A DNA stretch of 64,000 bases, taken from NCBI RefSeq assembly GCF_017352215.1, contig NZ_CP071444.1, forward strand, positions 868,001 to 932,000, in the 5' to 3' direction. The notes beneath the pieces are model-generated. The model ran no database searches and was not told the DNA's origin. It saw only the letters and a program-made list of their open reading frames with translations. This stretch comes from Alkalibacter rhizosphaerae. GTDB taxonomy: Bacteria > Bacillota > Clostridia > Eubacteriales > Alkalibacteraceae. How positions within the stretch are numbered: position 1 is the first letter of the stretch; each line of letters opens with the position of its first letter. Below, piece by piece: positions 39,517 through 40,308 of this stretch. The position numbers were made by a program, and so were the translations under genes.

Positions 39517-40308
39517 TTATAAAAAAGGATTGGAATACATCAGTATCAACGATACGATCAATGCGTAGATCCCCGTGGTTTGGGCTACCGCTTGACCCAG
39601 GAACATGATCTTTGTAATATTGCTCTGCTGGTCCGGTCGTTTTCCGGTGGCTTCCGCAGCCTTGCCGGCGGCGTAACCCTGGCCGATCCCCGGTCCGATG
39701 CCGCCTACCATGGCGATGCCGGCTCCCAGCGCCGATGCGCCCAATATGATGAAGGCACCTTCCATGGATGCAAAGGGATTTCCGTAGAGCAGGATCAGGG
39801 ATATGACCAATGCCAGGATCCCCGTCGTTTGGGCGACCGCCTGTCCCACCAGCATGACCAGTGTCACGCCTTTGGAACTTCTTGGATTGATCCCAACCGC
39901 TTCTGTTGCTTTACCGGCAGCATAGCCCTGGCCGATGGCCGGTCCCATGCCGGCGATAACGGCGATCCCCGCTCCGATGGCGGAGCTGGCGATGACCACC
40001 ATGCTTCCCGATGCACCAATGAGAGGATTCCCAAAGAGAAGGATCAGTGCCACGACAAGGGCCAGGATGCCCGACGTCTCGGCAATGGCCGCTCCCAACA
40101 GCATGGTGGAGATGATGCTTTTGCTGTCTTTGGGACTGTTGCCTACGGCTTCCGCCCCTTTTCCGGCGGCGTAACCCTGTCCGATCCCCGGCCCGATACC
40201 GGTGATCATGGCAAATCCCGCTCCAATGACGGATGCACAGGCGATGATCACTTTTGGTTCATAACTCATGATGAAGTCAAAGAACCATTGAATAAAATTG
40301 GTTTCCAA
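39517..40308 (-). CDS. Triple-hairpin c subunit with one ion-binding Glu (c1-like)
   Basis: 263 residues made of three c-type hairpins (about 20-97, 103-180 and 186-263), i.e. six helices. Each keeps the helix-1 block GQGYAAGK with its Gln (Q44, Q127, Q210). The helix-2 carboxylate is present only in hairpin 1 ([10 protein letters not shown]77); hairpins 2 and 3 read QAVAQTTGI (Q160, Q243). A. woodii c1 has two hairpins and one site; a third hairpin is unusual to my knowledge. The N terminus has an extra amphipathic stretch ([13 protein letters not shown]). Strong in-operon position between atpB and the two atpE genes argues that it is used. Confidence 0.95.

Follow-up and report, generated by a model that had tools for sequence, protein, structure and literature searches.

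A candidate three-hairpin enlargement of the A. woodii-type rotor subunit c1 in the F1Fo ATP synthase operon of Alkalibacter rhizosphaerae

Introduction

The ion-binding sites of Na+-coupled rotor rings are built from parts of two neighbouring hairpins (papers are cited here, by PMC number, for the passages that bear on each point). One hairpin contributes Glu65 and Gln32 (Glu32 in Fusobacterium), and the other contributes Ser66 (or Thr) and the carbonyl of Val63 (PMC2359735, PMC3692424); in a Na+ ring, both Tyr70 and Ser66 bond to Glu65 (PMC3692424). In the V-type subunit K of Enterococcus hirae, it is the adjacent hairpin of the same chain that supplies ligands, with Thr64 joining Gln110 and Glu139 (PMC2359735). 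All of the Na+-coupled F-type rings characterised as of 2013 contain 11 hairpins (PMC3692424). The Na+ motif Q...ET/S alone is no proof of coupling, given that the ATPase of Sporomusa ovata has the motif and is not stimulated by Na+ (PMC9430772).

The closest described system is that of A. woodii, in which subunit c1 consists of two fused hairpins in the order Glu-Gln; PDB entry 4bem contains nine c2 chains and one c1 chain. This enzyme has 10 sites and uses 3.3 Na+/ATP (PMC7793690), its c1 and c2 genes lie inside the ATP synthase operon, and an identical pair of single-hairpin c subunits is also present (PMC7911925). Clostridium aceticum, whose enzyme is reported to need Na+, has a c1 of two hairpins (Q....ET and then Q....QT) plus one c2 (PMC7911925). 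For both organisms, a Na+ ring with a lowered ion/ATP ratio is the published reading (PMC7911925, PMC7793690, PMC5662883). Tandem fusions of hairpins are likewise known from archaeal enzymes, namely the triple-hairpin c/K of Methanocaldococcus jannaschii and the 13-hairpin protein of Methanopyrus kandleri, in which 13 of 13 hairpins have kept all ligands (PMC2359735). In the fused c10 ring of Bacillus PS3, a single E56Q substitution abolishes ATP synthesis (PMC8809890, citing Mitome 2004), and two sites slowed by E56D cost least when they are adjacent (PMC8809890).

No description of an F-type subunit c with three or more hairpins was found among the listed titles and opening parts of abstracts. 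A survey of hybrid rotors, reportedly by Brandt and Mueller in 2015, may mention such cases. Nor do the passages seen of PMC8809890, PMC7911925, PMC5662883, PMC2359735, PMC3692424, PMC7793690, PMC9430772, PMC12835891, and PMC7251095 describe one.

The fused c gene and its operon

The window, that is, the whole stretch of DNA that was analysed, comprises 64,000 nucleotides of the Alkalibacter rhizosphaerae genome (contig NZ_CP071444.1, positions 868,001 to 932,000). It contains an F1Fo operon with the gene order small membrane proteins, a, fused c, c2, c3, b, delta, alpha, gamma, and beta (Table 1). An earlier note on this DNA had described the fused protein as 263 residues in three hairpins with a single ion-binding carboxylate, E77, and with Q160 and Q243 in the equivalent positions, and this is borne out by the reading frame, the codons, and Pfam, which finds ATP-synt_C three times (142.6 bits, cut-off 24). 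The note was also right that the helix-1 glutamines (Q44, Q127, and Q210) are kept in all three hairpins and that hairpins 2 and 3 have QAVAQTTGI in common, a motif present in the translation. In hairpin 1, residue 67 is Ser and residue 70 is Leu, as in most two-hairpin proteins. The c2 and c3 genes encode an identical 83-aa protein that carries the Na+ motif (Gln32, Glu65, and Ser/Thr66) together with Tyr70; the genes differ at 13 of 252 bases, and all of the differences are silent.

Table 1. Positions in the window of the fused c gene, its parts, and the neighbouring ATP synthase genes
Feature	Position	Strand	Basis
Fused c subunit, c1-type, 263 aa, three hairpins Glu-Gln-Gln, TTG start	39517..40308	-	ORF; three ATP-synt_C stretches; 4bem_J match E 1.4e-58
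GGAGG Shine-Dalgarno, 8 nt before TTG start of fused c gene	40317..40321	-	read from sequence
Hairpin 1 of fused c, residues 20-97	40018..40251	-	
GAG codon, Glu77, sole ion-carboxylate of fused c	40078..40080	-	
Hairpin 2 of fused c, residues 103-180, Gln at carboxylate position	39769..40002	-	
CAA codon, Gln160 of fused c	39829..39831	-	
Hairpin 3 of fused c, residues 186-263, Gln at carboxylate position	39520..39753	-	
CAA codon, Gln243 of fused c	39580..39582	-	
Subunit a (stator)	40340..41002	-	PF00119, 194 bits
AtpI-like membrane protein	41070..41501	-	by position; NCBIfam matches below cut-off
Small AtpZ-like protein	41482..41730	-	by position; no NCBIfam match
Single-hairpin Na+-motif c subunit c2	39219..39470	-	ORF; same protein as c3
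Second single-hairpin c subunit c3	38940..39191	-	same protein as c2
Subunit b	38395..38898	-	ORF and position
Subunit delta	37841..38398	-	ORF and position
Subunit alpha	36335..37840	-	ORF; PF00306 match inside
Subunit gamma	35433..36308	-	ORF and position
Subunit beta	33998..35401	-	ORF and position

The layout recurs in two other genomes of the genus, whose three-hairpin proteins are 94% and 91% identical to this one. The start codon, TTG here, is ATG at the aligned position in the two nearest relatives. For two of the three pairs among the three genus genomes, the whole-gene dN/dS is 0.017 and 0.046; for the third, synonymous sites are saturated, so that dN/dS is not computable and pN/pS is 0.075. 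Single hairpins, where computable, give dN/dS values of 0.008-0.074, and both Gln codons are kept across the genus genomes with a silent CAA/CAG change, even as synonymous sites approach saturation. The gene is thus under strong purifying selection, and the low values over the gene and its hairpins argue that it is not decaying. Furthermore, the genome is a single contig of 2,449,552 bases, which, with the same layout in two further genus genomes, makes an assembly artefact unlikely; taken with the purifying selection, these observations make chance or artefact an unlikely origin. A scan returned 7 promoter-like sites, against 4.2 (sd 2.1) in shuffled sequences, and 5 terminator-like sites, against 4.3 (sd 2.2).

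The operon is one of three for rotary ATPases in this 2.45-Mb genome. An alternate F1F0 (N-ATPase) operon lies elsewhere, at about 18-21.5 kb, and its c subunit passes TIGR03322 (157.7 bits, cut-off 130.85); a V/A-type operon with a K-like subunit is located near genome position 2,245,880. Besides a match to NQR2/RnfD/RnfE at 1,846,396, there is a second at 1452009-1452834, which is in two pieces, the longer of which contains one in-frame TAA.

Likeness to known rotor subunits

Among solved structures, the best match to the fused protein is A. woodii c1 (4bem_J), with an E value of 1.4e-58 and an alignment spanning residues 3-179. AlphaFold2, given a 10-sequence alignment, produced a best model with a mean pLDDT of 74.2 and a pTM of 0.74, but the mean pLDDT of the five models ran from 74.2 down to 36.1, too weak for site geometry to be read from them. 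When the model was used in a fold search, 4bem_J alone scored below E 0.001, with a TM of 0.41 to the query; the weaker matches (E above 0.02) were V-type c chains, including that of E. hirae (2bl2), mixed with unrelated helical proteins. An identity as a V/A-type subunit K was considered and rejected, given the F1Fo operon and the NCBIfam V-type K models, which score below cut-off; several NCBIfam models for F0 subunit c score above it.

In common with A. woodii c1, the protein has fused hairpins encoded in an F1Fo operon, a single-hairpin c next to it, Glu in the first hairpin and Gln in the last, Gln32 and Thr66 kept, and a c2 partner with an RQP loop; the identical c2/c3 pair also has its counterpart in that organism. 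It differs in having three hairpins rather than exactly two, and thus, if one fused copy is present, two neutral ring positions rather than one. Its three hairpins likewise distinguish it from the two-hairpin c1 of C. aceticum. The archaeal proteins resemble it as tandem fusions; however, M. kandleri keeps all ligands whereas one site in three is kept here, in an F-type enzyme whose fused subunit has separate single-hairpin partners. E. hirae K, a V-type protein, has its carboxylate in hairpin 2. The earlier note's proposal of an A. woodii c1-like subunit with one carboxylate per three ring positions in an F-ATP synthase with the Na+ motif is supported. As judged from its sequence, then, the fused protein is a conserved enlargement of the known A. 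woodii rotor subunit c1.

A series of fused subunits in relatives

The layout is not singular. Eighteen of 79 fetched named loci (from the best 80 of 197 relatives) encode at least three hairpins in one frame, and a collection of 111 distinct fused c proteins includes 27 with three to six hairpins, this one and 26 others. The collection is not a census, since one search contributed at most 30 loci, and "distinct" means not identical over the hairpins, so that near relatives remain and are counted many times. The patterns comprise 83 EQ, 14 EQQ, 2 EEQ, 4 EQQQ, 4 EQEQ, and one each of EQEEQ, EQEQE, EQEQEQ (a 538-aa frame), and EE. Glu is first and Gln is last in all of the 110 proteins other than EE, with one exception, the EQEQE protein cut by a contig end; in that protein the final hairpin has Leu70, from which a Gln hairpin would be expected to follow, and a close relative reads EQEQEQ. 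The earlier note would take many close homologues of the same layout, already described with a known role, as a refutation. Half of this applies: homologues exist, but no description of them was found in the titles, abstract openings, and passages listed above.

Searches of sampled genomes with the fused c protein gave matches at E 1e-40 in 12 of 391 genomes of the class and 14 of 398 of the phylum, and the same query matched 52 of 247 genomes of one order at E 1e-60; in one of the searches, no single-hairpin match came near these levels (best about 1e-30), and the counts are of matches at the stated level rather than of confirmed fusions. By a rough Shine-Dalgarno rule, which is crude, the 111 fused proteins start with ATG in 69 cases, TTG in 20, GTG in 13, and none of these in 9. 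Subunits of this series, with one to three neutral positions, also occur in the named isolates Alkalibacter mobilis (EQQ), Alkalibaculum sporogenes (EQQQ), Acidaminobacter hydrogenoformans, and Cellulosilyticum ruminicola (EQQ).

A strict rule finds a single-hairpin c within 1.5 kb for 22 of the 27 proteins with at least three hairpins. As for the other five, the single-hairpin c overlaps the fused gene in L108 and L140 when frames are taken from stop to stop, it lies about 2.4 kb downstream in L014 and L017, and L030 is cut by a contig end. In L014, from Marinisporobacter (L014:5995-6798), an EQQ gene stands outside the operon, upstream of the small membrane proteins and an a-EQ-c2 operon, and the hairpin genes of L017 are laid out in the same way; in this organism, one fused c subunit could be swapped for another of different size. 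A different kind of fusion, from the same order, is seen in L097 and L098, whose two-hairpin EE proteins keep both carboxylates and all ligands; on the fetched stretch of L097, there is no single-hairpin c on the same strand. In the EQQQ protein of L147, Gln32 is replaced by Cys in the two middle hairpins, as if these sites were free to decay.

Residue 70 and the stalk-facing loops

If Tyr70, like Ser66, is contributed by the neighbouring hairpin, then residue 70 would be expected to bear on the Glu of whichever hairpin follows it in the chain. Among the distinct fused proteins, Tyr70 is found in 0 of 140 hairpins followed in the chain by a Gln hairpin (95 have Leu and 45 have Phe), but in 10 of 13 followed by a Glu hairpin, one of the ten being in the EE protein. 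Gln hairpins with Glu next have Tyr70 in nine of nine cases, and the last hairpin has it in 107 of 110 (106 of 109 without the EE protein). The three exceptions that lack Tyr70 before Glu are all Glu-Glu junctions of c1-type proteins (EEQ, EEQ, and EQEEQ), indicating that Tyr is not required.

In a scan of 78 columns over 140 Gln hairpins, done without the EE proteins L097 and L098, column 62 (residue 70) was the best predictor of the state of the next hairpin (0.544 of 0.627 bits), followed by column 47 (0.526 bits), whereas no column exceeded 0.242 bits for the state of the previous hairpin. Within Glu hairpins, residue 70 is uninformative, the three with Glu next having Leu like most of the others. 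When only the 31 internal Gln hairpins are considered, the classes are told apart equally well by column 62 and by columns 50, 65, and 69. Part of the Tyr70 pattern probably stems from shared hairpin ancestry.

The loops also differ by position. Most single-hairpin proteins (72 of 80) carry the triad RQP. Asn occupies the second loop position in 101 of 110 first hairpins, as it does in 22 of 31 middle Gln hairpins and 11 of 12 middle Glu hairpins; in terminal Gln hairpins, the residue there is Arg (108 of 109). In alignments, A. woodii has KNP and IRP in c1 and RQP in c2. The fused protein here has NSP (residues 57-59), INP (140-142), and KRP (223-225), its hairpin 1 being one of the nine first hairpins without Asn. 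The stalk-facing loop of subunit c contacts gamma/epsilon, as is known from work on E. coli; if the loops bind there, the fused subunit could hold the stalk in one register. Taken together, the Tyr70 and loop patterns are consistent with the fused protein being a minority part of the same Na+ ring as c2. From the wiring of the sites we infer that no ion would be bound by the Gln hairpins and that the two end hairpins of the chain are adapted to having c2 beside them, which would place the fused subunit in the c2 ring.

Changes in hairpin number

On a tree of alpha subunits, the starred branches force at least six changes between two and at least three hairpins, and the best tree has nine. This tree, which was quick and carries a long-branch warning, covers the 77 loci that have both a fused c and an alpha subunit of sufficient length, 18 of them with at least three hairpins. 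In it, C. ruminicola (EQQ) and a Cellulosilyticum MAG (EQ) come out as sisters, and L010 (EQQ) is placed within a set of Fusibacter-like EQ rows. Hairpin number has thus changed repeatedly, with gain and loss indistinguishable on the tree, and some changes could be only apparent if the c1 gene was exchanged by itself.

The earlier note had argued from the shared QAVAQTTGI that the change of Glu to Gln probably preceded the last duplication. The shared motif stands, but this order of events is neither shown nor excluded by the hairpin trees (72 columns). Hairpin 2 of the fused protein has a mean identity of 62% to the Glu-type and 60% to the Gln-type hairpins of two-hairpin proteins. When the site columns are left out, a quick tree of few columns places it on the Glu side of a starred branch (without L017, L030, L093, and L139-L141, and with two-hairpin proteins from a 14-locus list). 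On the other hand, a single clade of all Gln hairpins was not rejected (AU p 0.379, 21 chosen loci), and a tree holding the three Alkalibacter-type middle hairpins with the terminal Gln hairpins was 12.6 log units better than the free tree.

Taken by parts, the mean identity of hairpin 2 to Glu-type versus Gln-type hairpins is 59 versus 36% in the loop and first half of helix 2, 64 versus 59% in the rest of helix 2, 67 versus 69% in helix 1, and 44 versus 73% in the site columns. This likeness, to the Glu type in the loop and helix 2 (only slightly in its second half), even in helix 1, and to the Gln type at the site, is suggestive but not proof. The cleanest hint of change after duplication comes from L010 and L040, whose middle Gln hairpin clusters with the terminal ones (supports 94 and 88) and yet carries Phe70.

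A model for the fused subunit and its alternatives

Our preferred explanation, to which we assign a probability of about 0.74, is that the fused protein is a three-hairpin version of A. woodii c1 built into the Na+ ring of c2/c3, with one site in three and a lowered ion/ATP ratio. In this model, hairpin 1 would form a working Na+ site, in which Glu77 and Gln44 are completed by ligands of the preceding c2; hairpins 2 and 3 would be structural and carry no ion; and Thr244, Thr245, and Tyr248 of hairpin 3 would complete the site of the following c2. If the number of hairpins in the ring is fixed, the fused subunit would lower the ions moved per turn. We infer its incorporation, in one copy, into a ring of 11 hairpins with Na+ as the ion, and the ratio that follows. 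On the assumptions of that ring size and a single fused copy, a ring of eight c2/c3 and one fused subunit would have 9 sites and, by arithmetic, use 3.0 Na+/ATP, compared with 3.33 in A. woodii and 3.67 in a uniform ring; EQQQ or EQEQEQ would give 8 sites and 2.67 Na+/ATP. Each ATP would then cost fewer ions, but the phosphorylation potential against which it could be made would be lower: at 120 mV, arithmetic for the 9-site ring gives 34.7 kJ/mol sustained versus 38.6 for an A. woodii-type ring. From Glu to the next Glu, the neutral stretch is three steps, or about 98 degrees in an 11-ring (131 in EQQQ), and in light of the E56Q result in PS3, it is not self-evident that the motor crosses two neutral positions.

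Could the Gln hairpins instead have been carried along neutrally when near-identical c genes crossed over unequally, without selection for any effect on gearing? The lineage-specific and repeated changes in hairpin number would be expected in that case, and the c2/c3 DNA, with so few differences, is a ready substrate for recombination. However, the patterns are ordered, with Glu first and Gln last throughout (the EE and contig-cut proteins aside), both Gln codons persist despite near-saturated synonymous sites, and the middle Gln hairpins of L010 and L040 have Phe70 though the terminal group with which they cluster mostly has Tyr70; we consider this origin improbable. It is less probable still that cells make the subunit but include it seldom or never in working rings, as an assembly form or a form for certain growth conditions, so that the average ion/ATP ratio hardly changes. 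A TTG start where two relatives have ATG, the presence of two single-hairpin c gene copies, and the free-standing EQQ gene of Marinisporobacter (L014), which is what would be expected of an optional subunit and has its own EQ and c2 operon downstream, would fit such a role, but strong purifying selection on all three hairpins, the position in the operon, a good Shine-Dalgarno sequence, and a residue-70 pattern that fits ring neighbours all argue against it.

Another possibility, compatible with the gearing explanation rather than exclusive of it, is that the fused subunit serves mainly for docking, its loops determining where gamma/epsilon sits on a ring that would otherwise be symmetric, with the lost carboxylates being a tolerated by-product or setting the phase of the gap with respect to F1. 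The dependence of the loop triad on position (RQP in single-hairpin proteins, Asn in first hairpins, and Arg in terminal ones), seen in A. woodii as well, speaks for this. Yet hairpin 1 here, with NSP, is an exception to Asn, the loop pattern could reflect hairpin ancestry, and the multiplication of Gln hairpins in EQQ, EQQQ, and EQEQEQ is left unexplained; as the main role of the subunit, it seems doubtful. A view that combines gearing with such docking holds that the fused subunit is a modular element, in which the number of hairpins and the order of Glu and Gln set the ions per turn, while the loops lock the carboxylate-free sector to one stalk angle. With one fused copy in an 11-hairpin ring, 10, 9, or 8 sites would correspond to 3.33, 3.0, or 2.67 ions per ATP, and the neutral stretch (about 98 degrees, or 131 in EQQQ) would pass the stator at the same phase of F1. 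This combined view we regard as speculative and unlikely as a whole.

Significance

The gearing explanation poses a mechanical question, in that one neutral position is reported to stop synthesis in PS3 (PMC8809890), yet these motors would have to get past two or three in a row. The relatives provide a natural series with one to three neutral positions, in which the gear ratio is comparable between close relatives, such as C. ruminicola (EQQ) and the Cellulosilyticum MAG (EQ). The ions spent per ATP set the lowest energy yield on which a cell can live, and this quantity may have been re-geared repeatedly in evolution.
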